The translations under genes and the position numbers were made by a program. A stretch of DNA of 64,000 nt from positions 1 through 64,000 of the forward strand of contig JARFXP010000004.1 of the NCBI GenBank assembly GCA_029194675.1. Direction: 5' to 3'. This document shows, piece after piece, positions 8,738 through 62,866 of this stretch. The stretch comes from Nitrospira sp. (GTDB lineage: Bacteria > Nitrospirota > Nitrospiria > Nitrospirales > Nitrospiraceae). The number at the start of each line of letters is the position of its first letter. The first letter of the stretch is position 1. A model generated the notes under the pieces. It had not been told where the DNA came from and did not search any database. It was given only the letters and a program-made list of their open reading frames with translations.

Positions 8738-8792
8738 GTTATTCTTCGTTGATGATGATGCTTCACGAACAACGCGTCACGCTTGACGCATT

Positions 8793-12146: not shown

Positions 12147-12162
12147 CTTCCCGTGGAGAATG

Positions 12163-12810: not shown

Positions 12811-12871
12811 CGCGCCCTCTCTCCTAGGACAACAGACTGGTCTTTTCCGCCACATCCATAGATAGGTCCGG

Positions 12872-13315
12872 TTAGTTGACCTTCCCGTGGACGTACTGAC
12901 TCACCAACTCCTCCAAGTCGAGGCCTGATTCCGTGTCACGAATGACGTCGCCCGGCTTCAGCGGATCTCCCCCTCCACCCGGCGAAAGCGCAAGATACTT
13001 TTCTCCGATGATTCCTCGGGTCTTGATCGAAGCGATGGTATCGGAATAGAGTTTCGTCCCAGTCTGGACCGCCAGTGATACCATCGCTCGATCCTCTTTC
13101 AGACGGATCGTCTTGACCCGACCCACCTCAACACCAGCGACTTCCACGGTTGCTCCGGCTTTCAGCCCTGTGGCTGAATTGAACAGCGCATCCACTTCGT
13201 AGACATCGCCACCGATCAGTTCCAACTTGCCGAGCTTGATCGAGAGATAGCCTAGACAGACAATCCCGACCAGCACAAACACGCCGACGATCAATTCGAG
13301 CTTGCCTTTTTCCAC
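12872..13315 (-). CDS. mlaD: MlaD-type MCE-domain protein
   Basis: 147 residues from a GTG at 13315 with GAGGAG seven bases upstream. One N-terminal membrane helix (LIVGVFVLVGIVCLGYLSI) is followed by a single MCE domain: VDALFNSATGLKAGATVEVAGVEVGRVKTI, VSLAVQTGTKLYSDTIASIKTRGIIGEKYLAL, SPGGGGDPLKPGDVI. The size and single MCE domain fit MlaD, which forms a hexameric ring with a lipid tunnel on the periplasmic side of the MlaFE transporter. The tail SGLDLEELVSQYVHGKVN is short. The gene order E-F-D-C is the classic mla order. Confidence 0.93.
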   Translation of the reverse strand: MEKGKLELIVGVFVLVGIVCLGYLSIKLGKLELIGGDVYEVDALFNSATGLKAGATVEVAGVEVGRVKTIRLKEDRAMVSLAVQTGTKLYSDTIASIKTRGIIGEKYLALSPGGGGDPLKPGDVIRDTESGLDLEELVSQYVHGKVN

Positions 13316-13350
13316 TGAGAGACTCCTCTATGATCCGTAGAACGCCTTCG

Positions 13351-14085: not shown

Positions 14086-14087
14086 GA

Positions 14088-14855: not shown

Positions 14856-14857
14856 GG

Positions 14858-15685
14858 TCAAGTCGACGAGAGTTCTTTCTTCTGCCGCTCGGTCGCCATC
14901 GCCACCGCATAACTTCGAAAAAAGGCCGTCAAGGCCTCCGCTGCGACCAGACTCTGTCGACGAAGCCGGCCAAGACCCAAGAGGCATGAAGGAGCAGCCA
15001 AGACGGTACCGATACCTTTGACCCAACCAGTGGGCCTGAGAAATAGATTGAAGTCAAGCGGAAGATCTTCGTCCAGAAGATCCGAAACAGATCGGATGAT
15101 CACAAAAGGAACCTGCGCCCGTTGTGCTTGAGCGGCCAAGGCTGAACTTTCCATATCGAGACCGATGGCCCGAGTACTCAGCGCAAACCTTCTCTTGTCA
15201 CGAGCACTGGCGATCACGCGATCAGTCGAGACAAACCGTCCGATATGCGCGGAGGGCACCATGGCATCCACAAATGCCAAGGCGAGATTCCGTTCATCGC
15301 CCGGTACTTCGATCGGCTGTGATGACTCTTCGCTGCACTCTCCCCTATGCACCACTTCGCGGCCCACCAACAACGCTCCAATATCAGCTGTGATGAGTGC
15401 ACAGGAAAATCCCGTCGATATCGCGAGGCTGAAGGATTGGCCGGCAAGTAGTTGGGCGGCGCTTCGCTGTGCCTTCTCCGGACCTACGCCGGTCTGCGCA
15501 AGCCAATATTCCCTGTCCACGATGGTATGCACGGGAACGGAGAGGCCACCGATTCGTCGTTGAACACCGGGAGGGAAGGCCGATTGAATCGCGCCCATTT
15601 CCCATGGAGTGGCGGCGAAGATCGCAATTCGCTTAAGCGGCACGGTACCCGATGATAGCGGGGAAAAAGAACCGGCGGGCGTCAA
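14858..15685 (-). CDS. hpnG: Hopanoid-associated nucleoside phosphorylase HpnG
   Basis: 275 residues. The ATG overlaps the cyclase stop in an ATGA junction, so the two are translationally coupled. The fold is that of purine and 5'-methylthioadenosine nucleosidases: IAIFAATPWEMGAIQSAFP at the front, SLAISTGFSCALITADIGALLVGREVV in the middle, and AIGLDMESSALAAQAQRAQVPFVIIRSVSD with the base-binding DMES motif. HpnG releases adenine from adenosylhopane made by HpnH, giving the ribosyl hopane used to build bacteriohopanetetrol. Its substrate enzyme hpnH lies about 11 kb away. The last 30 residues carry an extra helix. Confidence 0.85.
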   Translation of the reverse strand: MTPAGSFSPLSSGTVPLKRIAIFAATPWEMGAIQSAFPPGVQRRIGGLSVPVHTIVDREYWLAQTGVGPEKAQRSAAQLLAGQSFSLAISTGFSCALITADIGALLVGREVVHRGECSEESSQPIEVPGDERNLALAFVDAMVPSAHIGRFVSTDRVIASARDKRRFALSTRAIGLDMESSALAAQAQRAQVPFVIIRSVSDLLDEDLPLDFNLFLRPTGWVKGIGTVLAAPSCLLGLGRLRRQSLVAAEALTAFFRSYAVAMATERQKKELSST

Positions 15686-41226: not shown

Positions 41227-41871
41227 TTATGAGCGGTGCAGCTTGAGCGCTGCGGCGACGATCGGTTTGGCCCAGTTCGGCGTGGATGCCAGGTCCGGCG
41301 GACCGAGAATTCTGCCATGTTCCATATGCAGCACCGGTTTCAGCTGCGGTGTTCGGCCTGCTGAAGGGTTTGCGTCCGCGCTGTTGTCGTACATGTGGAG
41401 GGTGGTGAAGAGCGGAAGCAGGGCGATGAGGTTGAGACGGCTATGTTCGTAGCGGCGATGGATGTCGTGCGGGGGAATGTCGTGCCCGCCTCGGCTGACT
41501 CGGGCCTGCACGCGTACGATGTGTAATTCCGGGCTGGACAGTCCCACGTACCAGACATGCACCTCGATGCCCTGTTCGGCTGCTTGTGCAAGGAGGCTTG
41601 TGATGGTTTTCCCGCCGAGGGTGGTCTCAAAGGTAAAGTCTAGGCGCTTTTCGATCGCCCACTTCAGCAGCCTCACGCCCTGATGCCAAGCTGCGCCGTT
41701 GGCGTCTGCCTGTGTTAGCGTAGGATCTTTCTCCCTGAGGGCGCGGGCCGCTTCGTCCGGATTGAAATATTCGCCTCCGTGTTGACGGACAGCCGCGCCG
41801 CCGATGCTGCTCTTCCCCGCCCCATTGACGCCGGCCAGCACATGAATACGTGGCCGACGGGAAGTGCTCAT
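41227..41871 (-). CDS. Zeta-toxin-like P-loop kinase
   Basis: 214 residues. Walker A is GVNGAGKSS at 14-22. EYFNPDEAAR at 34-43 and FTFETTLGG at 79-87 are the zeta-toxin substrate segment and lid-strand motifs. Zeta toxins phosphorylate UDP-N-acetylglucosamine and block cell-wall synthesis; some relatives in this family have other substrates. The start overlaps the stop of the upstream antitoxin gene in an ATGA junction, so both are translated together. The pair is on the minus strand next to the NERD-NACHT gene. Confidence 0.82.
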   Translation of the reverse strand: MSTSRRPRIHVLAGVNGAGKSSIGGAAVRQHGGEYFNPDEAARALREKDPTLTQADANGAAWHQGVRLLKWAIEKRLDFTFETTLGGKTITSLLAQAAEQGIEVHVWYVGLSSPELHIVRVQARVSRGGHDIPPHDIHRRYEHSRLNLIALLPLFTTLHMYDNSADANPSAGRTPQLKPVLHMEHGRILGPPDLASTPNWAKPIVAAALKLHRS

Positions 41872-42263
41872 GCCCGCATGGCAGACGCACGCCGCGCACG
41901 CTTGCGCGCCGGTGCGCGATGCTTTTTGGCAGCCGTGGCTGCGGCGCGCCCAAGTTCCTCTGGAGAGGCGTTGAAGGCGGCCTCTACACCCTTCCGCGCT
42001 TGCCTCGTCTGCATGCGGGCCAGCGATTCGTCGAACTCCTCGTTCAGATCGTCCAGCGAACGGCTGCGTTCTTTCACCAGCGATTCGAACTCGGCGAACG
42101 AGAGGAGCACGGCCTTGGGCCTATCGTGACGAGTAATGACGACCGCGCCGCTCTGCAGCGTTTTCTCTAGGATCGCGCCGAACTCGTTCTTGACTTTCGT
42201 GGCTGCGACGGTGGAGATGTCCATAAGCTCTCCACGGCTGTTTCTGAATGTGAGCTTCGGCAT
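41868..42263 (-). CDS. Phd/YefM-type antitoxin fused to an Ala/Arg-rich tail
   Basis: About 131 residues from the ATG at 42263; the longer frame to 42308 lies in an AT-rich control region. MDISTVAATKVKNEFGAILEKTLQSGAVVITRHDRPKAVLLSFAEFESLV is the Phd/YefM DNA-binding fold. A helical linker and a basic tail (AAKKHRAPARKRARRASAMRA) follow and may wrap the toxin or bind DNA. Zeta-like kinases are more often paired with epsilon-type antitoxins, so this pairing with a Phd-type protein is less usual but known. It precedes the toxin, the standard order. Confidence 0.75.
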   Translation of the reverse strand: MPKLTFRNSRGELMDISTVAATKVKNEFGAILEKTLQSGAVVITRHDRPKAVLLSFAEFESLVKERSRSLDDLNEEFDESLARMQTRQARKGVEAAFNASPEELGRAAATAAKKHRAPARKRARRASAMRA

Positions 42264-42300
42264 GATGTCTCGAAAGGAATTAATAATTAATACAGCTAAA
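42264..42300 (-). promoter_or_regulatory. AT-rich operator-like region before the antitoxin
   Basis: gaattaataattaatac just before the antitoxin ATG contains the inverted repeat attaat-aattaat. Phd-type antitoxins bind such palindromes to repress their own operon. No fixed -35/-10 pair is assigned. Confidence 0.35.
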
Positions 42301-42561
42301 TTGTACATATTAGCTATTTATCGGTCAAGTGTGTGCAAACCGTGAAAGTGTGGACCGTTACCAACCACTGTCGGGCGGCCCTCACAAGGTTATGGCTTCT
42401 TAATCGAGAACGAAACGCACGAGAGAAGCATGGGATCGGATCTTGAATCGTGCAGCCGCCTTCTCTGACCGCCGGACAGGTGCTCGGCTCTGCTACTGGA
42501 CAGCCGGCAACGATAAGCGCTAGGCTGAACCTGAACCTTAACCTAAACGAGTAGGTAGCCC

Positions 42562-44191: not shown

Positions 44192-46330
44192 CTACGGATG
44201 TGCGATCACAACGAGGGTAGATGCCCGCGACAGGGCGCATCGGAGGCATTGGGTAAGCGTTTCCGGATCCAGTGCCGCAAAACTTTCGTCGAGAACCACC
44301 AGCTCGGCCTTTTGGAGCAAGGCGCGTGCAAGGTACAGGCGGCTCCGCTCACCGTGAGACAATTGCCATCCCGTCTCGCCGACTATCTGCATCAACCCTG
44401 ACGGCATACGACTCAGGAGATCACCAAGACCAAGCTCGTCGCAAAGTTGCTTGGCTTCTGCCATATCCTCGACGGTCGGTGGCCAGCGACGGCCCATCAA
44501 CAGGTTAAAGGCGAAGGGTCCTGTCATGACATGGTTTTCATGAAATTGCGATGCGACAGTGGTCAGCCGCTGCCAGGTCTGCCCAAGCGTCGACCGATCC
44601 AAGCCATTGAGCATCAACAATCCGGAGTCAGGATGCCGCAATCCTGCAAGTACGGCGCCCAACGTCGATTTCCCACCTCCGGAAGATCCTTCAATTAAGA
44701 GCCGATCGCCACGGTAAATCGTCAAATTACAGCCTTTCAATACTTGTTCACCTTGTCGCACGTAGCGGTAAGAGAGATCGCGGGCATGGACCAAGACGTC
44801 CCTTGCCACATCTTCACCATGGCTGAACGTGGCATGTGGCATCACTGATACGGCTGTGCTGCCTTCTTCGATGTGTTGGGTGGCCTTGAATAGTGGTGCG
44901 ACGGTTTCCCAGGCGACTGCCGCCCGTGCCAACGCTGCGAGGCCGGATCCAATTTCGCCGAATGCGCGGTACGCCAGCAACACCCCGCCTAGTCCGATGG
45001 CAAGCCCCATCCCTTCAGCACTGCTCCAGATGAATGCCGGGAGAAGCGCTAACATGCCCACAATCAACCAACCTCTTGGCGCTCCCCAGGCCAGCGGAAG
45101 AAAGGCCTTATCAAACTCACGCGAAAGGTGAAGAAATCGTTCCAGAGAATGATCTTCACTGACATGCCGCTGTTCGGGTGCTTCCTGCGCGATTCGAGTG
45201 CGATGGCCCACCATCTGTTCCACCAGCTCATGAGTGAGTCCGATTCGTGCGCGGGTCCAGCGGCGAAGTCGTTGGTAATAGAACCAACTGACTGAGAATG
45301 TCCCGGCCACCCATAGCAGAAGTGCGAACACATGCCAAAGACCGCCAGTGCCCCACGCCAGCACCCAGGCGGCCAAACTCAACTCAACCGCTGCAACAAG
45401 GACCGCAAATCCGCCGTTCAAGGCGAGGGACTCTAGGGCTTGAGACTCGATCACGTGCCCGAGTAACTGTCCGAATCCTTTCTGACGAATCTCATCCATG
45501 TTCATGGACAATGCACCGGATAACAACCGCTGTTTCAATAACGTCCCAAAATCAATGGCAAAGGTCCCTTGCAGCCACGTACCCACAAGCTGGATGGGAA
45601 CCATACCCAGCAGCAGTAGAGCCCATGCCATGAGCCAGCCGACATCGAGCCGTCCCTCTAATGCACCCTGGCCGATGATGGCCCACCCGATGATTTCGAG
45701 GAGATACAGCGTCACAAAGATCGCAACCATTGCCAGTGCACGATGAGGCAGTTTCATAGACGTGATCTGCAGCCAAAATGGTCTGTTGGGAGGCATTCGT
45801 ATCATCCAACAGCCTTCGATGGTCTGGCTCATCATCCGTTCCTGTACAAGGAGACGAGCAATGTGGGCCTGAGTATCGGCGGGAAGATTCGCGTGCTGGA
45901 GCAGGGCGTCGACCTCGGCGGTCACTGGTCTCTCCAATTCCACGCACAACGCTGCCTGTAGAAGACATGCTGGATATCGCCTCATCTCCTGATCGGGTCC
46001 GATAAGGTACACGTGACGGGCAGTGGCCTTGAGCAGCAGTAAGATGGTCGGCTCGCCTGCCAGTCGATATCGTAACAGCACCGGCCCTGCGCCATGGATC
46101 AGCTTCATCAGGTCCGCTCCGGTGGCGATCACAGATTCCATTTCTATTCCGCGTTGTGCACAGATCCAATCGAGCCACTGTTCAAAATCCTCGTGGCTCA
46201 AAGTTTCACGACATGAGGGGTGCCTACCGAGATTGACTGAAGTCGGTTTGAGCCCCGCTCGACGAGCCAGCACCTCGATCGCTTCGGGTAGTCGAACCAT
46301 GGGCCATGCGATAGATGCGATATTATCCAT
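44192..46330 (-). CDS. NHLM-type ABC transporter, ATP-binding/permease
   Basis: About 712 residues from the ATG at 46330, which overlaps the end of the peptidase-type ABC gene by 8 bases; the frame extends to 46402. An N-terminal domain of about 200 residues without a C39 catalytic set precedes the membrane domain (six helices, for example LAMVAIFVTLYLLEIIGWAI) and an ABC ATPase with GSSGGGKST, LSHGERSRLYLARALL and LVVLDESFAALD. This layout matches the second ABC subunit of NHLM (nitrile hydratase leader microcin) bacteriocin export systems, which pairs with a C39 peptidase ABC and an HlyD-like protein. Last gene of the cluster. Confidence 0.85.
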   Translation of the reverse strand: MDNIASIAWPMVRLPEAIEVLARRAGLKPTSVNLGRHPSCRETLSHEDFEQWLDWICAQRGIEMESVIATGADLMKLIHGAGPVLLRYRLAGEPTILLLLKATARHVYLIGPDQEMRRYPACLLQAALCVELERPVTAEVDALLQHANLPADTQAHIARLLVQERMMSQTIEGCWMIRMPPNRPFWLQITSMKLPHRALAMVAIFVTLYLLEIIGWAIIGQGALEGRLDVGWLMAWALLLLGMVPIQLVGTWLQGTFAIDFGTLLKQRLLSGALSMNMDEIRQKGFGQLLGHVIESQALESLALNGGFAVLVAAVELSLAAWVLAWGTGGLWHVFALLLWVAGTFSVSWFYYQRLRRWTRARIGLTHELVEQMVGHRTRIAQEAPEQRHVSEDHSLERFLHLSREFDKAFLPLAWGAPRGWLIVGMLALLPAFIWSSAEGMGLAIGLGGVLLAYRAFGEIGSGLAALARAAVAWETVAPLFKATQHIEEGSTAVSVMPHATFSHGEDVARDVLVHARDLSYRYVRQGEQVLKGCNLTIYRGDRLLIEGSSGGGKSTLGAVLAGLRHPDSGLLMLNGLDRSTLGQTWQRLTTVASQFHENHVMTGPFAFNLLMGRRWPPTVEDMAEAKQLCDELGLGDLLSRMPSGLMQIVGETGWQLSHGERSRLYLARALLQKAELVVLDESFAALDPETLTQCLRCALSRASTLVVIAHP

Positions 46331-49121
46331 GGTTTGCCTTTCCGTTTCCGACCACCACCGCTCTCCTCGATGACAACGGCATCTTGAGGCTAGAGGTTTC
46401 ATTCTCCTGGACCTGTCCCTGATCCAGCCGCAAACGACGCCAGATTGCTCCTGCCCATAACTCCTGACGGACCGACTCCTCAGATTCTAGGAGTGCCCGA
46501 TATCGTGAAGTCGGATCCGCTACCAGCTGGTCAGGCGATCCATCCTCTACAAGACAGCCGTTCTCGACCACGAGCACTCGATCAAATAAGCGTGTCTCTG
46601 CCACGTCATGGGTGACACACACGAGGGTCGCCGCATTCCAAAACTGTCGCGCCTCAGCTAATAGGTGGTGCCGCAGTTCTCGTTCCAATCCTCGAAAAGG
46701 CTCGTCTAACAACACCAGACGAGCCGCTGGTTGCCACATCGCTCGTGCAAGTCGGAGACGCTGACCTTCACCGCCGGAGAGGCGCGATCCACCCTCGCCT
46801 AATGAGGTTTGCAGGCCGTCGCCCAGGCGAGCCGTCACGTTCGTAAGCTCCGTTCGTTCGAGAATGGGGCCCAAAGCTGGGTAGGATTCGACTTTGCCGC
46901 CGTAGCAGACATTCTCCAACAGTGACCGATTCCAGATCTGAATCGCCGGATCCACCCAGGCCGTGGCACGGCGGAGTTGCCGCAGTTGCGCCGCTGACAG
47001 CGGTTGTCGATCGACGAAGATCCCTCCTTTGTCGGCGCGATACCAGCCTAGGAGCAAACCGATCAAACTCGACTTGCCCGCGCCGGATGGCCCGACAATA
47101 GCCACATGTTCGCCGGATTGAACATGCAGACGAATGTCTTGCAAGATGGTTTGCCCAGCAGCGATGACCGTGACTCGTTGAAACTCGATTTCTACACCGG
47201 ACATCTTCGGTGAGACGGGAGAGACCCGGGTGTGCTCCACTGATTCTTCCGGTGAAGACACGAGATTGGTTTCAGCATCCGTCATGGTCTCTTCCGGTGC
47301 ATTAAGCGGTTCGAGCAAGCGCAAGACGATGTTGCGTTGCGCGGGGTACTGCAACGCCAGCGTCGCGAGGCTTCTGCCTAACGCCGGCAACTTGAGAGTC
47401 CAATAAACCAATAAGAGTAGACTTCCCGTGACTCCGACAGTGTCAAGATGTTGCATCAAGAGCACACCGACTAACCCAAACGCGACAAACGACTGAATGC
47501 CGTGTACGATCAGTGAGAAGCTCAAGAGTCGCTTGGCCGACCGTGCCCACTCGGTCAGCAGGCTTTCATGTTCCCGGCGAACAGCCCGCTCTGCGGAATG
47601 TGTCCGAATCGGGACGCTGCCCCGTAAGGCATCCAGGTAGAATCCATGCAAAGCCCCAGCGTGACCGCGAACCCGTAAATCTCGTTCGCGCATAGGATGT
47701 TGCGCAAAAACCGTCAGGCTAAGCGATGTGCCGGCGAGCGTCAGCGCGAGCATGAGACTGTGAGGTGCAATATAACCAATGCCCACCAGGGTAAAGATGA
47801 CTTCCCACCAAGCTTGGATGAAGCGCACCGCTAAATCAGGCAAAGTGCGAAGCAGCGACAGACTATGACTCCGTTCCGCCATATCGGGGATCGGACGGCT
47901 CTGCAAATATCGATCATGTAATGTCGGAAGTTTCTGGAGGAGAGCCGATCGTAAACGAATCTCGAGGTGCCGCCCTAATCGTAACGACTCGCTGATAATG
48001 GGAAGCTCACACCCCCAGAGCAGCACGATGAACGACAGCAACGCTCCAAGCGCGACGATACGTTGGCTGGCGACGGTGAGCAGGTTGGCGAGTTCGAAGA
48101 CGCCGCGGAACAGCAGTGATTCGATCAGCACGGCACCGACCGCCAGACCGATGGCGCCTATTAATGCAAGGGGAGTTAAAATACCCTCTCCTCGCATTAA
48201 GTCCCACAACTCTCGCATCGGACGCACAGGGCGTTCTCGCAAGGCGGCCGAGAGCTCAGGCGTCAAGGAGTTCTTGATCGCCGATTCGCTCGCCTGACGC
48301 AGGCGACCACGAATCCGAAGAAGCACTGCGCCCTGGAAGACCAATTGATCCTCCATGCGCGGATGGTCTATCGGAGCTACAGACCAATAGGTGGCGGGAA
48401 CGGCAGTACGGGCTCCTGGCGGTTCTTCTAGAACCCGAGTGAAGAGGCTCTCAAGTAAGCGGACTGTCTGTGTCCCACGACGGAGTCCACCGGAGGTCAT
48501 AAGACGCGCGGTCATTCGCAATGCCGCATCAAGTCCAGCCACGGCATGCCAAGTTTTGTGATCCTTCGCACGTTGAAGAAGGTCATTCGTCTCAGCAGGA
48601 GAAGCCCCGACCGCCTGTAACCGGCTTGCAAAGATTTCAAGCGTGTCGTCGGATATGGCCCATTCGTGCCAGTCGGAAGTCGCAATGGGCAAACGATGAA
48701 GATGGATCTCCCTAGCAAAATCCGCACAGGTCGCCCACCGACGCCCCACCCCCGGATCCATGATTTGCAACCAACGGCCATGGCGTCGCCACACGATGAC
48801 AAAATGCAAAAGGCCATTAGGTTGCTTGGCAACAACTAAGGCCGGCAGCGCCTTGGCGGCAGGAATCCACAGGTAATCCGGCGGCAACATCACCTGTTCA
48901 GCATCCAACCCAAGCTGACGAGCGACAACCTCGATGACATCGATGGATGTCCCATCGACGGATGTCTGACAGGCCTCACGAAGCCGTCCATAACTGGCGG
49001 AAATATTGAAGCCCTCCAACAAACAAGTCAGCGCCGCAGGGCCGCAATCCATCACCGAGGTCTGCACGACCTCAGGCACGAACCAGCAACGTCGCGTTGT
49101 ATCCCGTGTGGATTCCATCAT
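46323..49121 (-). CDS. NHLM-type ABC transporter with C39 peptidase domain
   Basis: 932 residues. The C39 peptidase opens the protein: QTSVMDC26GPAALTCLL, H106 in GLLHFVIVW and D122 in QIMDPGVGRR form the catalytic triad. C39 domains cut leader peptides after Gly-Gly during export. A helical insertion, six membrane helices and an ABC ATPase follow (Walker A GPSGAGKSS, signature LSGGEGQRLRLARAM, Walker B LVLLDEPFRGLE). The ATG overlaps the HlyD stop (ATGA). The partner ABC gene overlaps its end. All three transporter genes are thus coupled. The peptide gene 1.5 kb upstream is the natural cargo candidate. Confidence 0.9.
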   Translation of the reverse strand: MMESTRDTTRRCWFVPEVVQTSVMDCGPAALTCLLEGFNISASYGRLREACQTSVDGTSIDVIEVVARQLGLDAEQVMLPPDYLWIPAAKALPALVVAKQPNGLLHFVIVWRRHGRWLQIMDPGVGRRWATCADFAREIHLHRLPIATSDWHEWAISDDTLEIFASRLQAVGASPAETNDLLQRAKDHKTWHAVAGLDAALRMTARLMTSGGLRRGTQTVRLLESLFTRVLEEPPGARTAVPATYWSVAPIDHPRMEDQLVFQGAVLLRIRGRLRQASESAIKNSLTPELSAALRERPVRPMRELWDLMRGEGILTPLALIGAIGLAVGAVLIESLLFRGVFELANLLTVASQRIVALGALLSFIVLLWGCELPIISESLRLGRHLEIRLRSALLQKLPTLHDRYLQSRPIPDMAERSHSLSLLRTLPDLAVRFIQAWWEVIFTLVGIGYIAPHSLMLALTLAGTSLSLTVFAQHPMRERDLRVRGHAGALHGFYLDALRGSVPIRTHSAERAVRREHESLLTEWARSAKRLLSFSLIVHGIQSFVAFGLVGVLLMQHLDTVGVTGSLLLLVYWTLKLPALGRSLATLALQYPAQRNIVLRLLEPLNAPEETMTDAETNLVSSPEESVEHTRVSPVSPKMSGVEIEFQRVTVIAAGQTILQDIRLHVQSGEHVAIVGPSGAGKSSLIGLLLGWYRADKGGIFVDRQPLSAAQLRQLRRATAWVDPAIQIWNRSLLENVCYGGKVESYPALGPILERTELTNVTARLGDGLQTSLGEGGSRLSGGEGQRLRLARAMWQPAARLVLLDEPFRGLERELRHHLLAEARQFWNAATLVCVTHDVAETRLFDRVLVVENGCLVEDGSPDQLVADPTSRYRALLESEESVRQELWAGAIWRRLRLDQGQVQENETSSLKMPLSSRRAVVVGNGKANHG

Positions 49122-50308
49122 GAGCCGGCGACGGTGAGCGATCCGCCTTGTTGTGCTGGTCGGGTCAACATCTGTCCCACGGCACGCAGGGCTAAGGTCA
49201 CTGGTGTCGTATGTTCAATCTCAACTTCAACCGTGCCCGGCAAGCCATGCTGGAGTAACAGAGGGAAGCCGGATTGCGAGTCCGGTATCAGTTCGACCCG
49301 GACACGACCGGCTCGAATCTCGCTTGCCACGCGAGCGACCTTGGCGACGATGCTTCCATATTGCGCCCAGGGATAGCCGTCGAGGCGTACGCGTGCTGGT
49401 TGGCCAGGATGCATACGCCCTAGGACTCTGGCCGGCGAAAACTCTGCAACAATTTTCAGATCCCCCAACGGGACCACGCTGCCGACCACGGCACCGGTCT
49501 CGACGAACGCACCAACGTTTAGAGGAGCGACTTCCCCAAGCACCCCAGGCACGGGAGCACGAATGACGTGTTTCTCGATGTCTTGTTTAAGGCGTGCGAC
49601 CGTGGCGGTTGAGAGGTCACGTTGGCCTTCAAGCGACGCGACTTCGCGCTTCAGAGCTTCCACGACAGCATGTTTTTCATGTGCTTTGCTCGATGCATCA
49701 GATGTCAAACGGTGGATCTCGTGCAACAAGGCATCGGCCACCGCTTGCGCTTTCTCTGCTTCGGTCTTGGTCCGTAAAAAATCGACTTCCGAGATGATGC
49801 TGCCACTCAGAAGTTGTGCCATGCGTCGGGCCTGATCTTTGGCAAACGACGCGGTGGAGAGGGCTTCGCGATAGCGCGCTTGGGCTTGCTCAAGACCACT
49901 GGCCGACGCTCCTCGACTCTGTACAGCAGCTCGTTCTTCATCAGCAATTTGTCGTGTGAGCGCTGCGAGTTGAGGGGGGATCGCCGTGATCCTGGCTTCT
50001 TCTTCTTCCAGTCGTAACCGCTCGGTATGGGCATCGAGTTCAATGAGTTTCTCACCTGCTTCGACCTGCTTCCCAAGACGCATCGACGTGGAGAGAATCG
50101 TGCCCGCGATTCGAACAGCGACCGGATGTGCCGCCTGTTCGACTTCCACACGAGCGGTCTGGGACACTTCATAAAGTGTCACCTTCACAAGCGTGAACCA
50201 CGATAGCCACGCCCCGAGCAGGACTGCGAACAATCCCCACGCAAACAGCGCAAACCGTGACGTGTCATGTGTCAATGAGCGAGTCGTTCGCGAAAAAGGA
50301 ATGGGCAT
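49118..50308 (-). CDS. HlyD-family secretion adaptor (NHLM-type)
   Basis: 396 residues: one membrane helix near 20-42 (FALFAWGLFAVLLGAWLSWF), a lipoyl-like half motif, a long coiled coil (ERLRLEEEEARITAIPPQLAALTRQIADEERAAVQSR...EKAQAVADALLHEI), then the second half VIRAPVPGVLGEVAPLNVGAFVETGAVVGSVVP and a beta-barrel. Membrane fusion proteins of this type link inner-membrane ABC exporters with the outer envelope. It begins 178 bases downstream of the peptide gene, with two strong hairpins between. No outer-membrane TolC-like gene is in the window. Confidence 0.88.
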   Translation of the reverse strand: MPIPFSRTTRSLTHDTSRFALFAWGLFAVLLGAWLSWFTLVKVTLYEVSQTARVEVEQAAHPVAVRIAGTILSTSMRLGKQVEAGEKLIELDAHTERLRLEEEEARITAIPPQLAALTRQIADEERAAVQSRGASASGLEQAQARYREALSTASFAKDQARRMAQLLSGSIISEVDFLRTKTEAEKAQAVADALLHEIHRLTSDASSKAHEKHAVVEALKREVASLEGQRDLSTATVARLKQDIEKHVIRAPVPGVLGEVAPLNVGAFVETGAVVGSVVPLGDLKIVAEFSPARVLGRMHPGQPARVRLDGYPWAQYGSIVAKVARVASEIRAGRVRVELIPDSQSGFPLLLQHGLPGTVEVEIEHTTPVTLALRAVGQMLTRPAQQGGSLTVAGS

Positions 50309-50407
50309 GGCGACAGGTGAATCCCCATGGAAATGTGTGTGAAATGCAGCTCGACGATGTAGATTGCCGGTCGACTTCGCCCCCTCTTGCAGTTCTTGAG
50401 GGACGAG

Positions 50408-50431
50408 GTAGGGAGCGTCATCGCTCCCTAC
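50408..50431. terminator. Perfect 10-bp hairpin between peptide gene and exporter genes
   Basis: gtagggagcg-tcat-cgctccctac is a perfect 10-bp stem with a 4-base loop. It lies between the peptide gene and hlyD, so the minus-strand transcript forms it. No T-run follows, so it may be an mRNA processing or attenuation element rather than a full terminator. Confidence 0.5.
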
Positions 50432-50453
50432 TTCGTAGACTGCTGCCAGTCTT

Positions 50454-50474
50454 CAGAATCCAAAGGATTCTGAA
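50454..50474. terminator. Second hairpin just after the peptide stop
   Basis: tcagaatcc-aaa-ggattctga is a perfect 9-bp stem with a 3-base loop, 12 bases after the peptide stop codon. With the hairpin at 50408-50431 it could stabilise the 3' end of a short, abundant peptide mRNA while letting a fraction read through to the exporters (inference). Confidence 0.5.
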
Positions 50475-50486
50475 TCCGTGTAGCCC

Positions 50487-50585
50487 CTAGAAGGCATAGA
50501 CGGGACCACCACCGGGAAGCTTCGGCAACCCGATGGGGCTGCAGTAATTCGGACGCCCGGCCCGAACCTTGGATTTCACCTTCAT
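50487..50585 (-). CDS. 32-residue candidate precursor peptide
   Basis: From the ATG at 50585, with AAAGGAGAA giving a GGAG six bases upstream, the peptide begins MKVKSKVRAG, has one Cys in RPNYCSPIG and ends LPKLPGGGPVYAF. The start is basic, the rest Gly/Pro-rich. A Gly-Gly at 26-27 lies six residues from the end. C39 peptidases cut after Gly-Gly, which would release only a GPVYAF-like hexapeptide, or the peptide may be processed elsewhere. No known precursor family is recognised; it is not the long nitrile-hydratase-type leader. The location between an unknown 626-residue protein and the exporters makes it the likely cargo. Confidence 0.6.
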   Translation of the reverse strand: MKVKSKVRAGRPNYCSPIGLPKLPGGGPVYAF

Positions 50586-50692
50586 GGCGTTCTCCTTTGG
50601 TCGCGAAGTTCCGTGCCCATCGCACGTAGATCTGCCGGCCTTCTGCCGGCCACAGATACGCCACCCCACATCAGCAACTCGTGGCGGAGTTG

Positions 50693-52573
50693 CTAACCGG
50701 TCATAATATCTGTGATCTCAATAGTGTCGTGCGTAATGTTGATCTGCACTCCCGTCCCTTCCTTCAGCACAGCAAGGAGATAGGGTGGTCTACGGCTCAA
50801 CTCCTGCAATTCGTAATACATATAAAGGTCCCATCCCGTGAGCGGCTGTCCGGGTGAGGGGCGACCGAGGAGCTGATTGATGCGCTGTTGAATCTCCCGG
50901 ACCGCCCGTACCACTGCCCGTTCTTGTCGTAGGTAATCCATGACGCAACCAGCGAGACTCTTACCGGCTGAATTCTCCGGAGCTGTACCCAGACAGAGGC
51001 GGTGTTGCAACAAGGAACACAGTTGTTCCAGCACTTCCCCATCGTGGGCTTCCCAAACAGGGGTCAGAGATTCTGACAGGACAGTAGGTGAAGAGCTGAA
51101 GCCGAGCCCGCTCGCGGATTTCGCATACATGTCTGCGAATACTTGATCGCGTCTCATGCGTGACTCTTCGGTTCCAATGTAGGAATGAGTGCGCATAAAA
51201 GTGACCGCGTCGTAAAGCCGATGGCGAAACTTCACGAACAGCTCAGACTTTTCGGTAGGCCAGGATTCGACAATGGCACAAAGTTGCTCATAGGTTCGCG
51301 TGATCATATTCCAAAGTACAAACACGATCGCGTGCAATTGAAGGCCATAGAGCGCATAGTCGAATGCCGGTTCTATTTCGGCCAGTGCCGATTCGAGGGG
51401 ATCGTCGAGCACGACGGACTCCGTTCCGTCGACGGATTCACCGTCTACAAGGATGCGGAGAAACTCTTCGATCATCACTCTCGGTCCCGCGCACACACCA
51501 TGATCCGACAGGAACACCGCATTTCGCTCTGCATACGAAAAAATCTCCTGGCTCGTCATCGGTGCGTCAGGCGGCCTGGTTGGCTCATTGACATCGATGA
51601 ACAGCATGTAGTGCATGACCATCCGTACGCCGTCGGTCACTCGGAACATGGAGGAGAGCACGGGGTGGAGCTGGCCGTTCTCAACGCGGTTCTCGGCACG
51701 CATCAGCAGAAAAGCCGGCAAGGTCAACACCACCGCAGATAATCGCTCCAGATCGCCTACCGTCCATCCCGCTCGAACCTTCGGAAAACGGCGCAGGTAC
51801 GCTTCTCGGATTCGTTGCACCGCCACCATTGTTGGCTTCCAGTGCTCCTTCATGCTCTTGAGCGCCGTGACGTTAATCGGATGATGGTCTTGGAACCGGC
51901 TACCCTTGTACATACAGGTGCGCCACTCAGTCGGAATATCCAATCGTAATTGTGCTGGAAAGACGTTTGCCTCACCCACCTGCCGCCCTTCGGTATCTAA
52001 CGCAATGTGCGCCACTCGATAGATGGGAATAACCGACTCCAAATAGCCCACTTCCAAAGAGCGGCCGGTTAACTCGCTCATGATCGTCTCACAATCAACC
52101 CAGGTACGAGGCACTGAGGTTTGCGCAGGTGGAAGTGGGGATTGGCGAACCTTCTCTTGCATGGAAAAAGGTTCAGATCTGTCAGAAGCATTCGCGGTGC
52201 TCCGTTCAAGAATCCCTTCATTGAGGAGCTGGCTCAGCAGCTCACGTACTCGCGACCAATCGTATCCAGCACCCCAGTTTGTGGCATCACGCGCCACGAA
52301 CCGCTCATGCGCGGCCAGACTTTCGCCAAACTGAAACAACTCTGGTTCATCGAATGTGATGTCCTTTTCGCCGTAATAGATGTGCAACTCTTGGCCACCT
52401 GAGTCCGTGGTCACGTATTCGCTGACCATACGTCTATAATGCGGACAAGAGAGATGATCCTGAGGCTCCAGTAAACTCTGATCGGCATATTGCCCATGCA
52501 TGGGGCAACCGCTACTGGTTGGTGTCTGTACCTCGTCGTGCATCTTTACTTGGCTACACGATGATTCACTCAT
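50693..52573 (-). CDS. 626-residue protein of unknown family in the peptide cluster
   Basis: Starts at the ATG at 52573 with GAGGTG seven bases upstream. The N-terminus has C23-P-M-H and C43-P-H motifs, plus C6, which may bind metal. A segment GYDWSRVRELLSQLLNEGILER (about 100-121) resembles a winged-helix or peptide-recognition helix. The rest is mixed and soluble: VPRTWVDCETIMSELTGRSLEVGYLESVIPIYR, HHPINVTALKSMKEHWKPTMVAVQRIREAYL, LHAIVFVLWNMITRTYEQLCAIVES. I do not recognise an enzyme family. It starts 77 bases after the MauG-like gene and ends about 108 bases before the peptide gene on the same strand. A maturation or peptide-binding role is inferred from position. Confidence 0.7.
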   Translation of the reverse strand: MSESSCSQVKMHDEVQTPTSSGCPMHGQYADQSLLEPQDHLSCPHYRRMVSEYVTTDSGGQELHIYYGEKDITFDEPELFQFGESLAAHERFVARDATNWGAGYDWSRVRELLSQLLNEGILERSTANASDRSEPFSMQEKVRQSPLPPAQTSVPRTWVDCETIMSELTGRSLEVGYLESVIPIYRVAHIALDTEGRQVGEANVFPAQLRLDIPTEWRTCMYKGSRFQDHHPINVTALKSMKEHWKPTMVAVQRIREAYLRRFPKVRAGWTVGDLERLSAVVLTLPAFLLMRAENRVENGQLHPVLSSMFRVTDGVRMVMHYMLFIDVNEPTRPPDAPMTSQEIFSYAERNAVFLSDHGVCAGPRVMIEEFLRILVDGESVDGTESVVLDDPLESALAEIEPAFDYALYGLQLHAIVFVLWNMITRTYEQLCAIVESWPTEKSELFVKFRHRLYDAVTFMRTHSYIGTEESRMRRDQVFADMYAKSASGLGFSSSPTVLSESLTPVWEAHDGEVLEQLCSLLQHRLCLGTAPENSAGKSLAGCVMDYLRQERAVVRAVREIQQRINQLLGRPSPGQPLTGWDLYMYYELQELSRRPPYLLAVLKEGTGVQINITHDTIEITDIMTG

Positions 52574-52649
52574 GATCGCTCACCTCGCACCTGCTCGTTT
52601 CGATTGGCCTGGATGATCTTCAATGGCCCAAAACCTTCCCGTTCGTCCG

Positions 52650-54941
52650 CTACCGCGCGCATTGCCCCCGTGGAGTAAGAATTGGATCTTGCGGGTCTAG
52701 ATTGAGAAACGATTGGAGAGGAGACCAGGTTCCTCCACTCCCGACAGCTTCAATGTGCAGCATGCCGACGGCATCTGTTCCATCGCGTGGAATGCTGAGC
52801 GCAGGGTGGTCAAACGGCGCTTGTTGATACTTCACACGAGGATCAGTTAGCGAAACCAGGAAAGCGACGAGTTGTTCTTCCTGTTCGACAGTAAGTTGTA
52901 ACGGTGCCATCAGAAGATGTATGTCGCTGATATTGAAGCTGCAAAAATTCCCTCCTCGATTGTAGAACTGCACCACTTGCCGCAATGTCGCCATCCCACC
53001 GTTATGGAAATATGGTCCCGTCAATTCAACATTACGAAGGCCCGGGACCTTAAATGCTCCATCGGCAGCGACACGCTGAAAATTTGGCCTGATAAGTTCA
53101 TTCGGCTCACAGAGTCCGTTGGCACTGGCATCCTCACAGACGGGCAGTCCAAGATCTTCGTCCTTGGCTGGAATATGGGCGTTTCCTAGAATTGGGAAGC
53201 TCATTCTAGGAGTTCCAAGTGTGCTGGAGAGACGGTCAAACAATGCTTGACGAGTAAAGGCCAGGGGCTGACCAAAAATATCCGTGTCACCGCGCCCGAT
53301 ATCGTCCGTCGTCGGCGTGACTCCAAGATTGTAAAAGCCATTGTCGTAGAGCGCGGTCCCTTTGACCATTGCCATAGCTCTGATCAGGTTCTGCCCGCCC
53401 TTGGCACTTCGCACCGAAGCATTCGTCAATTCCGGGCCGGCATGGCAGTGAAGACAGCGCCCCTCGTTCACAAAGACGTTGAGGCCGGCCAGCTGCTTTT
53501 TGTGGAATCCATGATTGAACTGTCCTGTTTCCATCCACTCGTCAAAGGGCGTTCGATCTGCCACCAACGTGGCTTCGTACATGGCGATTGCAAGACCGAA
53601 GAAAAACCCGAAATTCACCTCCATTTGGGTGAAATTTACGGGCGTCGGCGTACTGGGAAGCTCCGTCAGTTCCTTGGAATTCCAATACACGTCGACAAAA
53701 GCGCGCTTGATCATCGCTTCATAGGTGGTGGATAGCCCGTTCCCCGGGGCTTTCGATAACCGGCCCAGCACAGAATCATACGGATGGACGTATTGTCCGC
53801 CGAGGGGAGTCAGAGGAACATTGGTTGAAGTGCCGGGGCGTAATAACTTCTGACCGAGCTCACGTAATCTCCTCCCATTGCCGATTGTCGGCTCGCCAAA
53901 TGCCATTTCAACCGGATTGATCGGTGGTGCCACTGCTTGTGAGGCCAAACTGGCATTGTCGAGTGAGATATGCTCTGCCACGAGTCCGATGCCTGATCGA
54001 TTCACCAGAATGGCGGCTGCTTGGTCCTGATCGCCAAACGGAGTTCGCCCCGTGAAATGCGGATTGGCTCGTCCGTCCCAGAAGTTGGTGAAGTTGAAGA
54101 CCGCATTGATGACCGAGGGCGTGTTGCGATGTTCGATAGCCCTCACAGTGATGTGACCATCGCGATTGAACACCGGGTCGAGGAGTGGGGTGCCGAGATC
54201 GAGGGGAGACCCTGGCTGCAGTCCGTCATATCTTGTGGATTTGACTCCCATGGATCCGACGATGTCGTTGCTGTTATTGGCGCCGGGCGCAATCGTCCCA
54301 TCGGACATGCGGGTCACGACGTCAATCACTTTCACAAATGGGAAATCTTCCCTGGTCAGGCTCTCATCTGGTCGCTTGGTCTCAAAGCCCTGTCGGCTTG
54401 AGCCGGCAGTACTGTAACCGATCACGTCGCCAACTCTGCTATCTGTCACTCCCTCATCAGGATTCACCGCATTTTTTATGCGATTGTCCGTGCCTGCATG
54501 AAAGTGGCAACTGGCGCAGGCCTGCACACCATCGCTGCCGACTTGCATATCCCAGAACAAAGCCTTCCCCAGTTGAATTGCTGCCCACCGATCTGAAATG
54601 AATGCCTCAAGATTTGACGGTAATGGGACAGTTCCGTCTTTCTGAACCGCGAGACGCAACGAGTCTAATCCGACTTTTCGCGCATCTCCCGGATGGTTAA
54701 TCCGATCGCCATGATGTCGGCCAGGATGATGTCCATGGTCGTGGGGTCCAATGGAACGATCCCGTGAGTCAACGTCCATCTTTTCCAGCTGTGAAGGATG
54801 ATCCGTCGTATTCGCAGTGGATTCGGCCATCGGGAGTTGCGGCACAAACAGTGTCCCACCGAATATCATCATGATGATCGCTAATGACGATCGCATTGTG
54901 ATTCGAATTGTCTTCATCCAATGACCGTTTGACTTAGCCAT
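52650..54941 (-). CDS. MauG-like di-haem cytochrome c peroxidase-family enzyme
   Basis: About 763 residues from the ATG at 54941 with AGAGGA six bases upstream. The signal peptide is MKTIRITMRSSLAIIMMIFGGTLF. A His-rich stretch (HDHGHHPGRHHGDRINH, about 67-83) follows. Haem motifs are C142-A-S-C145-H146 and C496-L-H-C499-H500. Late motifs GPYFHNGGMATLRQVVQFYNRGG and GAFKVPGLRNVELTGPYF are those of the bacterial cytochrome c peroxidase/MauG family. Such enzymes use hydrogen peroxide to oxidise proteins, for example tryptophan crosslinking by MauG or kynurenine formation by MbnH. It is first in the peptide cluster, so a periplasmic peptide- or protein-modifying role is plausible. It is longer than typical enzymes of about 350-450. 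Confidence 0.85.
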   Translation of the reverse strand: MAKSNGHWMKTIRITMRSSLAIIMMIFGGTLFVPQLPMAESTANTTDHPSQLEKMDVDSRDRSIGPHDHGHHPGRHHGDRINHPGDARKVGLDSLRLAVQKDGTVPLPSNLEAFISDRWAAIQLGKALFWDMQVGSDGVQACASCHFHAGTDNRIKNAVNPDEGVTDSRVGDVIGYSTAGSSRQGFETKRPDESLTREDFPFVKVIDVVTRMSDGTIAPGANNSNDIVGSMGVKSTRYDGLQPGSPLDLGTPLLDPVFNRDGHITVRAIEHRNTPSVINAVFNFTNFWDGRANPHFTGRTPFGDQDQAAAILVNRSGIGLVAEHISLDNASLASQAVAPPINPVEMAFGEPTIGNGRRLRELGQKLLRPGTSTNVPLTPLGGQYVHPYDSVLGRLSKAPGNGLSTTYEAMIKRAFVDVYWNSKELTELPSTPTPVNFTQMEVNFGFFFGLAIAMYEATLVADRTPFDEWMETGQFNHGFHKKQLAGLNVFVNEGRCLHCHAGPELTNASVRSAKGGQNLIRAMAMVKGTALYDNGFYNLGVTPTTDDIGRGDTDIFGQPLAFTRQALFDRLSSTLGTPRMSFPILGNAHIPAKDEDLGLPVCEDASANGLCEPNELIRPNFQRVAADGAFKVPGLRNVELTGPYFHNGGMATLRQVVQFYNRGGNFCSFNISDIHLLMAPLQLTVEQEEQLVAFLVSLTDPRVKYQQAPFDHPALSIPRDGTDAVGMLHIEAVGSGGTWSPLQSFLNLDPQDPILTPRGQCAR

Positions 54942-55322
54942 CACTCGTCCTCTCTAATCGTTTGATCTCATGGTTATTTTCATCTTCAGCAAAGTCGATC
55001 GCTGCGACCCCAATCTCTCCAAACCGACCTTCTTCCTCAGTGTGGATACGTATTTGCGACCTTTGTTTGGTTGAGGTGCTAATCACGTCTTATGCCAGGA
55101 AGGGGCGCAGGATCGGTCTCGGCGGAAACTATTGGGAAGAATGGGAAAAATAGACTCGCAGGAGGAAACCACCGGATAACGATGATTAGCGACCTAATAT
55201 AATATGTATCCGAATAGATTCCGTGGTGTATCTAATTCGATATCTGGGAGCTCACGCGGCGACAAGCGGCGGGACGGTTCGGAGCAGGCGAGCGGTCGGA
55301 ATGAATTCCAGCGGCGTGCCGA
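54942..55322. other. Region upstream of the peptide-cluster operon
   Basis: About 380 bases. The promoter of the MauG-like gene must lie here on the minus strand. An AT-rich stretch aatataatatgtatccgaatag near 55195-55215 may be part of it. No gene is supported; a plus-strand frame (55223-55561) enters the transposase fragment antisense. Confidence 0.35.
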
Positions 55323-56534: not shown

Positions 56535-56652
56535 CACTCTTGTCCAAAATAAGTTCTCAACAGGCCTCCGGCTTGTGAGTAGGATAGGTTGTTCAACGCA
56601 CATCCATCCACGGCGTTCCCGCGCCGTGGCACCCACAAGCCGGAGGTGCAGT

Positions 56653-57357
56653 ATGGTAACCGTCGCCAGTTGCTTTGCGCAAATGCTCGCCCTGATCGAT
56701 CGCGCGGACTTCGCTCGGGCCGTTCGACAGCACGCCGCTGAGCGAGCAGCCAAGGGGTTCAGCTGCTGGGATCACTTGATAGCGATGCTGTTTTGTCAGA
56801 TGGGTAGTGCGCACTCACTTCGAGAAATCTGTGGCGGCTTGGCCACCGCCCTTGGCAAACTCGTCCACCTTGGCATCCGTCGGACACCGACTCGGTCCAC
56901 GCTGGCCTATGCCAATGCGCATCGGCCCTGGCAGCTGTACGAGACGCTCTTCTATCAAGTCCTCACCCGTTGCCAAGCCGTCGCGGCCTTGAAGCGCCGC
57001 CGGTTCCGGTTCAAGCACCCCTTGCGCACCCTCGACGCAACGATCATTGAACTCTGTGCCACGGTGTTCGATTGGGCCAGATTCCAGCGGACGAAGGGGG
57101 CGATCAAGCTCCATCTGCAGCTGGATCACCAGGGGTGTTTGCCCTGCTGGGCCCTCGTGACCGACGGCGACACCAACGACGTGCGGATCGCCCAACAGCT
57201 CACCTTTGCGCCAGGCACCATCGTGGTGATCGATCGCGGGTATCTCGACTATGCCCGCTATCATCGTTGGACGGTCGACGAGGTGGGATTTGTCACCCGT
57301 CCACGCACCAACATGCTCTACGAAGTGCTGGAGCAACGTGTGCTAGGCTCGAAAAAG
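56653..57357 (+). pseudogene. IS4-family transposase, 5' part
   Basis: The ATG at 56653 has GGAGG six bases upstream. [27 protein letters not shown] and [32 protein letters not shown] are the DUF4372-like front of the IS4 group. TLDATIIELCATVFDWARF gives the first catalytic Asp and FAPGTIVVIDRGYLDYARY the second. The frame enters the IS3 element after VLGSKK and so lacks the end of the protein, which continues at 58595. Confidence 0.85.
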
Positions 57358-57398
57358 TGGACGCCTTCACCCTATGATCAGAGGTCTGGAGGTGGGGG

Positions 57399-57716
57399 AT
57401 GGAACAAGTACCGCGACAGCAGTATACGAAGGAGTTTCGGGAGCAAGCGGTGCAGCTGGTCCTGGAACAGAAGTTGACGATTCCGGAGGCAGCCAGACGC
57501 CTCACCATGTCGGGCAAGACCCTCGAGCGCTGGGTGTGTCGAGCCCGGCAGGGTCAGCTCGCGACGCTGGGCGAGAGCCGACGGCCCGTGACGGAGCTGG
57601 AGGCCGAGGTGTCTCGGCTCAAACGCGATCTCGCTGAAGCACGCATGGAGCGTGACATCCTAAAAAAAGCCACCGCGTACTTTGCGAAGGCGCAGCTGCC
57701 CGGTACGCGCTCATGA
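57399..57716 (+). CDS. IS3-family transposase OrfA
   Basis: 105 residues. The start MEQVPRQQYTKEFREQAVQLV is a typical OrfA helix-turn-helix, with LTIPEAARRLTMSGKTLERWV as recognition helix and LEAEVSRLKRDLAEARMERDILKKATAYFAK as the C-terminal leucine-zipper. It binds the element ends. Its stop overlaps the OrfB start in an ATGA junction; relatives make the OrfAB fusion by -1 frameshifting, here possibly at the cctaaaaaaagcc run near 57658-57670. Confidence 0.92.
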   Translation: MEQVPRQQYTKEFREQAVQLVLEQKLTIPEAARRLTMSGKTLERWVCRARQGQLATLGESRRPVTELEAEVSRLKRDLAEARMERDILKKATAYFAKAQLPGTRS

Positions 57717-58573
57717 GGACGCTGCGTCACCAGTATCCGTTGCGTCTGTTGTGCCGGGTCCTCGACGTGTCCCGAAGCGGGTACTATGCCTGGTGCACCC
57801 GCCGCCCCTCGACGCGCGCCCAGGAGAACGCGCGGCTGGAAGTGGCGATCCAGGCCGCGCATGTGCGCACGCGGCAAACCTACGGCCCAGAGCGGCTCCA
57901 AGCAGAATTGCGTGCCGACGGGTTCCCTGCTGGGGTCGGGCGTATCAAACGACTGCGCAAGAAACTGGGACTGCGTTGTCAACAAGTCCGCCGGTTCACA
58001 ATAACCACGGATTCAACGCATGCGCTGCCGGTAGCGGAAAACGTGTTGGCTCAGACCTTTGCCACCAGGCGACCGAATGAGGCTTGGGTCACCGATATTA
58101 CCTATGTGCCGACCGTGGAAGGATGGCTGTATCTGGCTGGCGTTAAGGATCTCTACACCTGTGAGGTGGTCGGCCATGCGATGGACGCCCGGATGACGAC
58201 GGACTTGGTGCAGGATGCACTGATGAAGGCCATCGACACCAAACGTCCAGCCCCGGGGCTCATTCATCACTCCGATCGCGGGGCTCAATATTGTGCCCAG
58301 GGGTATCAAGCAACGCTGAGGCAGTTCGGCATGATCCCATCCATGAGTCGGAAGGGGAATTGCTATGACAACGCGCCGATGGAGAGTTTCTGGGGAACGC
58401 TGAAGAATGAGCTGGTGCATCATCGTCGCTACGAGACCCGTGAGCAGGCTCGGCGCGAGATCTCGGAGTACATCGAGCTCTTCTATAACCGTCAGCGGCG
58501 GCATTCTCGGCTCGGGAATCGCTCGCCCGCTGCGTTTGTCCAGCAATGGGTCCGTCAACAGCTGGCGGCGTGA
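57713..58573 (+). CDS. IS3-family transposase OrfB (DDE integrase)
   Basis: 286 residues. The integrase core has the DDE residues: Asp in EAWVTDITYVPTVEGWLYLAGVKDLYT, Asp in LIHHSDRGAQYCAQGYQ, and Glu in YDNAPMESFWGTLKNEL. The front part HVRTRQTYGPERLQAELRADGFPAGVGRIKRL is the HTH_21 domain. Length is normal. The catalytic set is intact, so with OrfA the element could move. Confidence 0.95.
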   Translation: MRTLRHQYPLRLLCRVLDVSRSGYYAWCTRRPSTRAQENARLEVAIQAAHVRTRQTYGPERLQAELRADGFPAGVGRIKRLRKKLGLRCQQVRRFTITTDSTHALPVAENVLAQTFATRRPNEAWVTDITYVPTVEGWLYLAGVKDLYTCEVVGHAMDARMTTDLVQDALMKAIDTKRPAPGLIHHSDRGAQYCAQGYQATLRQFGMIPSMSRKGNCYDNAPMESFWGTLKNELVHHRRYETREQARREISEYIELFYNRQRRHSRLGNRSPAAFVQQWVRQQLAA

Positions 58574-58594
58574 GGCTGCAATTCATGGCGTCCA

Positions 58595-59100
58595 CTATTG
58601 ACAACCGGGGTCAACGCTCCGTGCCGACACGCGGACCGGTGCTGGTCGATGAGGTGATCCGTCTCACCAGTTCCCATGCGGCTGACCGGTGCTCGGTCCC
58701 CCTGCGACAGGTGACGATCTGGGATGAGAGACAGCAGCGGCCGCTACGGTTCCTGACCACTCTCATGCAGCTTGCGGCCAGCACGATTGCCGCCATCTAT
58801 CGGGAGCGCTGGCAGATCGAACTCCTCTTCAAGGCCTTGAAACAGCATCTCCGGATCAAGACGTTTGTGGGCACGAGTGAGAACGCCGTACAGGTCCAAA
58901 TCTGGATCGCCCTGCTCGCGATGCTGCTGTTGAAATTTCTGCAGCTGAAGTCCACGTGGCCCTGGAGTCTCTCGAATCTGGCCGCGTTGCTCCGCTTCAA
59001 TCTGTTGACCTATCGGGATCTGTGGGACTGGCTCAATGCGCCCTTTGAACGGCCGCTGCTCATACCAGCGCCGCCCCAACAGAGGCTATTCGCTACCTGA
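58595..59100 (+). pseudogene. IS4-family transposase, 3' part
   Basis: The frame downstream of the IS3 element continues the interrupted transposase: NRGQRSVPTRGPVLVDEVIRLTSSHAADRC, FLTTLMQLAASTIAAIYRERWQIELLFKALKQHLRIKTFVG, with the catalytic Glu in the Y-R-E-R-W-Q-I-E-L motif. It ends at the stop at 59098-59100. The IS3 insertion disrupts the coding sequence, so the protein is lost. Confidence 0.82.
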
Positions 59101-62404: not shown

Positions 62405-62866
62405 ACACGTTGTCATCATCTGCGATGGAGCTATAGCGAGAACTCCCATCGCGAGAGCCTTATCAAGTCGTACCGGTGGAGGAGTTTCATGGTTCCCAAA
62501 GGTTTCCTCAACGTGAGCAATGAGAACACCGGCAGAGAGCAACTCCGCCCATGTGTCTGTGCATTCGTGAAGTGGTTGTTCAGCGAATAACTGGAGCTGC
62601 GCTTAGTGAAGTGACGTACCTGATCATGAGGAGAGCTTGCCATCCCGTGGTCTCCGTTCAGATACGACGTGTACCAGAATAGATACCATAAGTAAGATCG
62701 GTTACGGAACCAAGCTCGTTCGGCGGTGGAGGCGGCACATGGTCATCATCAAATTTCCTGTGGTTTTCTCTTATCGCCTTCGGTCGAGAATGCTCGAAGC
62801 TTGTTCGGACACTTCTTTGACCAAGATCCCATCTTCGGATGTGACGGCTCGCAACTAAATTTGGGG
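62405..62866. other. Intergenic region between TIR-STAND-FGE and RayT
   Basis: About 460 bases. The frames on both strands (for example plus 62726-63043) lack start sites and run antisense into the transposase. The TIR-STAND frame continues upstream to 62542 without a methionine or ribosome site better than 62404. No repeat or RNA is recognised. Confidence 0.35.

Follow-up and report, generated by a model that had tools for sequence, protein, structure and literature searches.

We identified a candidate gene cluster for a ribosomally made, post-translationally modified peptide (RiPP) in a Nitrospira genome, which recurs in a small number of related genomes and probably makes a modified, exported peptide of a kind not yet described. 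Within the 64,000-nucleotide stretch of DNA analysed (hereafter the window), six co-directional genes encode, in order of transcription, a MauG-like protein with two haem motifs, an uncharacterised 626-aa protein (P626), a 32-aa peptide, a HlyD adaptor, a C39-ABC exporter and a second ABC protein (ABC2; Table 1). The original prediction of a compact cluster of these six genes on one strand was correct, as all six reading frames exist and the set is conserved. Its interpretation was only partly supported. The short peptide proved to be a real precursor gene, and neither family searches nor the open-access literature returned a described RiPP class with this enzyme set, however, the exporter is not NHLM-type by curated cut-offs and the MauG-like protein is not the only candidate maturase.

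Table 1. Features of the cluster, its surroundings in the window and related loci in other genomes.
Location	Strand	Feature	Support
52650..54944	-	MauG-like di-haem c-type protein, 764 aa (ATG start likely at 54941); N-terminal hydrophobic signal/anchor-like stretch; haem motifs CASCH and CLHCH; Tyr where bCCPs have the Met haem ligand (QFYNRGG)	Pfam CCP_MauG 1.7e-20; alignments to PDB MauG/bCCP; motif positions and family alignment
50693..52573	-	P626, 626 aa: candidate RiPP-modifying protein, predicted N-terminal RRE-like domain plus unknown core; no signal peptide apparent	No Pfam, NCBIfam or PDB match; 48% identical orthologues beside precursors in G011 and G072
52211..52426	-	Predicted RRE-like winged-helix domain of P626 (residues ~50-121)	AF2 model; nearest PDB folds mostly RRE domains
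50696..52108	-	P626 core (residues ~156-626), a family shared with a Burkholderia NRPS-cluster protein; conserved C..G-[ST]-R, HW and VCAGPxxM motifs	tblastn 6e-16; alignment
50608..50632	-	25-nt element GATCTACGTGCGATGGGCACGGAAC with dyad CGTGC-N5-GCACG	Identical upstream of all four precursors
50487..50585	-	Precursor peptide gene, 32 aa: leader MKVKSKVRAG, predicted 22-aa core RPNYCSPIGLPKLPGGGPVYAF	Four homologous precursors; ribosome-binding site AAAGGAG
50556..50585	-	Conserved 10-residue leader, motif KxKx[NK]V[KR]xG	Identical or near-identical in four precursors; KxKxNV[KR]xG also in the Piscinibacter precursor
49118..50308	-	HlyD-type periplasmic adaptor, 396 aa	Pfam HlyD_3 7.7e-13
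46323..49121	-	C39 peptidase-ABC exporter, 932 aa; catalytic Q..C, H and D motifs and Walker A/LSGGE intact	Pfam Peptidase_C39 2.5e-19 and ABC_tran 6.7e-24; motifs DCGPAAL, HFVIV, MDPGVGRRW
44192..46402	-	Second ABC transporter/permease (ABC2), up to 736 aa (probable start Met25 near 46330)	Pfam ABC_tran 8.1e-19; 61% identical orthologue beginning at residue 26
3601-4617		HpnH-like radical SAM gene	Radical_SAM plus DUF3463 (domains of the G011/G072 counterpart)
41227-42308	-	Zeta-toxin-like kinase next to a Phd/YefM antitoxin	
56575-59100	+	Transposase and integrase-core genes or fragments beside the cluster	
59600-62542	-	980-aa TIR plus nSTAND1 plus FGE-sulfatase protein, a defence-like architecture	
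G017 locus, 9488-9918		In-frame deletion scar joining P626 residues ~50-103 to the end of ABC2	
Burkholderia arboris pla_2 locus, 9458-16603		NRPS cluster with a P626-core homologue	
Piscinibacter gummiphilus plasmid locus (NZ_CP136338), 1-9221		HlyD, C39-ABC, ABC2 exporter with an MbnB/TglH/ChrH enzyme and a 57-aa precursor	

Conservation and loss of the cluster

The full gene set recurs in two further species with readable peptides, here called G011 and G072, in two gene orders. In G011, which was found through its P626 orthologue, the order is P626, two peptides, MauG, HlyD, C39-ABC, ABC2, whilst a search with the upstream-plus-leader DNA detected the cluster in G072, with a P626 orthologue and one peptide. 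A close relative, G085, and a near-identical MAG contig carry MauG and part of P626 at one contig end and exporter genes at another, hence contig ends hide the peptide. C39-ABC homologues at 65% identity or more occur in exactly four of 79 Nitrospira-genus genomes (that of the window, G011, G072 and G085). The same four carry P626 and MauG homologues at 58% or more, with other genomes having only MauG homologues of 47% or less. Among 296 Nitrospirota genomes, a sample that did not include every carrier, P626 was found only in this genus. Weak hits elsewhere in the phylum, in genomes G292 and G310, lay in frames that by eye read like a restriction-type helicase and a TPR/Sel1-repeat protein, and were treated as chance. 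No relatives were detected in viral contigs, and one scan of genome contigs found only the close relative, although this used single-sequence patterns and a wider distribution is not excluded.

A fifth genome, G017, keeps the flanks of the window locus, but the cluster is reduced to an in-frame fusion of P626 residues to the C-terminal end of ABC2, with a later frameshift (Table 1). This is direct evidence that the cluster was there and was lost. The HpnH-like radical SAM gene that borders the cluster in G011 and G072 lies about 39.5 kb away in the window, with the cluster inverted and toxin-antitoxin, NERD-AAA and other genes in between (4.6-44.2 kb), indicating a variable island next to hpnH. 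This gene is therefore a housekeeping neighbour and not a maturase.

Precursor peptides share a leader and differ in the core

The window peptide reads MKVKSKVRAGRPNYCSPIGLPKLPGGGPVYAF, and the other three precursors, two of them from G011, read MKVKSNVRAGLVATAVRGTCRSLTTPVLPKFGCRVLYAAY, MKVKTNVRAGARGGCRSIVLANY and MKVKSNVRAGVLATTVRGTCRSLTTVLAPKIGTCRTLYAAF. All four share the leader MKVK[ST]xVRAG, which changes mostly at silent sites (pN 0–0.09 against pS 0.29–0.57), before a hypervariable core (pN 0.19–0.48). One Cys is invariant in the core and all four peptides end in Phe or Tyr, whilst none contains Trp. This is the leader/core pattern of RiPP precursors (PMC7470986), here in the three species with readable precursors.

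The 25-nt element lies some 22 bases before the start codon of each of the four precursors without a mismatch, and nowhere else in the 79 genomes with up to three mismatches. It is the longest exact DNA match between the window cluster and G072 (25 nt) and part of the longest with G011 (33 nt), although the genes are 57–69% identical in DNA (G072 comparison). A regulator site and a translation-control element are both possible. The CGUGC/GCACG stem recurs but its energies are not unusual, and a search of Rfam returned nothing above threshold.

P626 has a predicted RRE-like domain and an uncatalogued core

An AF2 model of P626 residues 50–121 (pLDDT 66, moderate confidence) has the beta3-alpha3 order of a winged helix, with DSSP assigning E12-17, E23-29, E32-36, H39-50, H56-60 and H68-80, which matches the definition of RRE (leader-binding) domains used in PMC12710340. 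The top VIA rows were ThcOx (Z 5.7) and McbB (Z 5.1), followed by CteB, LynD, the PbtF RRE, TruD and PaaA, with Foldseek ranking LynD first and the PbtF RRE third. No single match is significant (Z 5.7 at most, Foldseek E at least 0.25), hence we call the domain RRE-like; what persuades is that RiPP enzymes with such domains fill most of the top rows.

The remainder of P626 matches no Pfam, NCBIfam or PDB family, and PDB sequence searches with P626, its profile and its Burkholderia homologue returned nothing. No HExxH, CxxxCxxC or CxxCH motif is present, and a full-length AF2 model was unusable (pLDDT 36). A resemblance in motifs suggested a PrnB/IDO-type haem dioxygenase, however, comparison with PrnB homologues from plasmids gave no support (hhalign probability 0.1–0.2%, E 0.29–0.61), albeit with shallow profiles of limited power. 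The one distant relative of P626 is a 480-aa Burkholderia arboris protein, 24–26% identical (26% over residues 193–435), which lacks the N-terminal domain and is encoded next to cupin/JmjC and metallo-beta-lactamase proteins, an NRPS frame with condensation, adenylation and carrier domains, and a thioesterase. The P626 family is therefore probably a peptide-tailoring enzyme, and the B. arboris locus appears to be an NRPS pathway with an uncatalogued tailoring enzyme. P626 relatives without a peptide or exporter nearby had been named beforehand as evidence against the cluster, but this homologue was the only such case, and it shows wider use of the core domain without breaking the cluster reading.

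Exporter and MauG-like protein

The original prediction described the exporter as NHLM-type. NHLM models (TIGR03796/03797/03794) hit far below their curated cut-offs, at 163.8 of 853.3, 99.8 of 709.4 and 17.8 of 156.2 bits, and a search for the NHLP precursor (TIGR03793) returned no match in the genome, with none in the control genomes either. The only close full-length exporter relative in 72,556 plasmids, and the only plasmid record below 1e-10 when searching with the first 707 residues, is in Piscinibacter gummiphilus. Here HlyD, C39-ABC and ABC2 stand in the same order (30, 39 and 33% identity) beside a PF05114 “RiPP precursor modification enzyme MbnB/TglH/ChrH”, a 225-aa protein of unknown family and a 57-aa precursor containing KAKVNVKLG and ending GPIPFIAGLSNKARQKPW, with MoeB/MoaD-type proteins and a carbamoyltransferase nearby. 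In 430 kb of DNA from the loci compared (overlapping loci counted), translated in six frames, the pattern KxKxNV[KR]xG occurs only in that frame and in the G011 and G072 precursors, whilst the window copy has Lys for Asn. As the motif was first noticed by eye it is a lead only, and is probably the exporter’s recognition and cleavage signal, with the cut after the final Gly.

The MauG-like protein has, by alignment only, Tyr at the six-coordinate haem ligand position, as in MauG and BthA (PMC6405878) and unlike the Met of bCCPs. It scores below the TIGR03791 and TIGR04039 cut-offs (81 of 444 and 106 of 363 bits, the latter for MbnH). Relatives of 690–780 aa occur in Nostoc, Paraburkholderia and Comamonadaceae without RiPP genes, and long di-haem proteins include fatty-acid and rubber oxygenases (PMC4496055).

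Proposed pathway and alternatives

Our favoured explanation, held with moderate confidence, is a RiPP cluster of an undescribed type. The precursor, MKVKSxVRAG plus core, would be translated and its short leader bound in the cytosol by the RRE-like domain of P626. The P626 core would then modify the core peptide, most likely around the invariant Cys and/or the C-terminal aromatic end. The C39 domain would cut after VRAG while the HlyD/C39-ABC/ABC2 exporter moves the peptide out, and the secreted di-haem protein would oxidise the exported peptide, or handle its redox chemistry, in the periplasm. Our analysis establishes the gene set, its recurrence, the leader/core selection pattern (and with it the peptide reading frame) and the intact C39 motifs, whereas leader binding is inferred from a predicted fold of modest match quality, and core modification, export, the cleavage site and periplasmic oxidation are likewise inferred from sequence without expression or product data. 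The di-haem step is speculative and remains tentative.

The original prediction held that the secreted MauG-like protein was the only redox enzyme candidate. This is not supported as stated, since P626, with its predicted leader-binding domain, is the better candidate for a first, cytosolic step. Periplasmic oxidation after export stays possible. Were it to occur, this would be a new RiPP class matured in two compartments, with an RRE-fused enzyme of a new family acting in the cytosol and a MauG-like di-haem enzyme oxidising the exported core, a reading that is not excluded but which we consider unlikely.

The alternative that survives best, although tentative, differs from ours only in this last step and so overlaps with it. 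Here P626 and the exporter alone make the RiPP, and the MauG-like protein is a co-located helper, such as a lipid/terpenoid oxygenase like RoxA or PA2077, a peroxide-handling peroxidase, or protection against the product. The occurrence of its subfamily far from any RiPP gene and its varying gene position between species favour this, however, in the cluster-bearing species the close form is found only with the cluster (4 of 4). It is unlikely that the peptide is exported unmodified and then oxidised in the periplasm by the MauG-like enzyme, the version closest to the original prediction, with P626 a chaperone, immunity or regulatory protein. The close MauG-like protein is always in the cluster, with Tyr at the ligand position, MauG modifies tryptophans of a partner protein (PMC6405878) and the Trp-to-kynurenine change of MopE is possibly made by a MauG-like peroxidase (PMC3621798), but P626 carries a predicted leader-binding domain, the precursors lack Trp, the classic MauG target, and RREs belong to cytosolic modification. 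Similarly unlikely is an unmodified, C39-processed bacteriocin or signalling peptide with P626 as a regulator or immunity factor. A C39 exporter with HlyD suffices for class II bacteriocins and signals, and the core is Gly/Pro-rich in the window copy, but the RRE-like domain, the NRPS-cluster homologue and the exporter relative beside a RiPP-modifying enzyme argue against it. Finally, although short open frames are common in the window, a chance neighbourhood with a spurious small frame is very unlikely given four homologous precursors at the same place with silent-site leader changes, a ribosome-binding site and the conserved 25-mer, and the co-occurrence in four of 79 genomes.

The cluster is a testable candidate for a RiPP class whose key enzyme belongs to no catalogued family, in nitrite-oxidising bacteria whose peptide chemistry is little explored, and the P626 core family bridges ribosomal and non-ribosomal peptide pathways. 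If the di-haem protein acts on the exported peptide, it would be a case of haem-based peptide maturation after export. The 10-residue leader and the 25-nt element are simple handles for finding more such clusters.

Comparison with known systems

In our reading the cluster works like other RRE-dependent RiPP clusters (PMC7470986, PMC12710340), with a short precursor of conserved leader and variable core, an enzyme with a beta3-alpha3 RRE-like domain, and C39/ABC export beside it. It differs in that the domain fused to the RRE-like part belongs to no Pfam, NCBIfam or PDB family, and in that no cyclodehydratase, radical SAM, YcaO or lanthionine enzyme is present in the cluster. The NHLP/Nif11 (NHLM) export systems (PMC2887384) share a distantly homologous HlyD, C39-ABC and second ABC, but the leader here is 10 residues and not nitrile-hydratase-like. 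The Piscinibacter locus has the same exporter subfamily in the same gene order and its precursor shares KxKxNV[KR]xG, but its modifying enzyme is a DUF692 multinuclear-iron protein, and no P626 or MauG-like gene was seen in the stretches read.

A MauG-type protein beside a RiPP operon is not unprecedented. MbnH/MbnP lies by methanobactin operons, with the role of MbnH unresolved in PMC3621798, and NCBIfam has a His-Xaa-Ser-system MauG-like model (TIGR03981). The cluster described here has no MbnB or MbnC, has a different exporter, and its di-haem protein is about twice as long as MbnH. In quinohemoprotein amine dehydrogenase maturation (qhp; PMC7876137) a peptide is likewise modified in the cytosol, its leader removed and the product exported to the periplasm by an ABC transporter, but that system uses a radical SAM enzyme, a flavoprotein and a subtilisin-like protease, and its product is an enzyme subunit.
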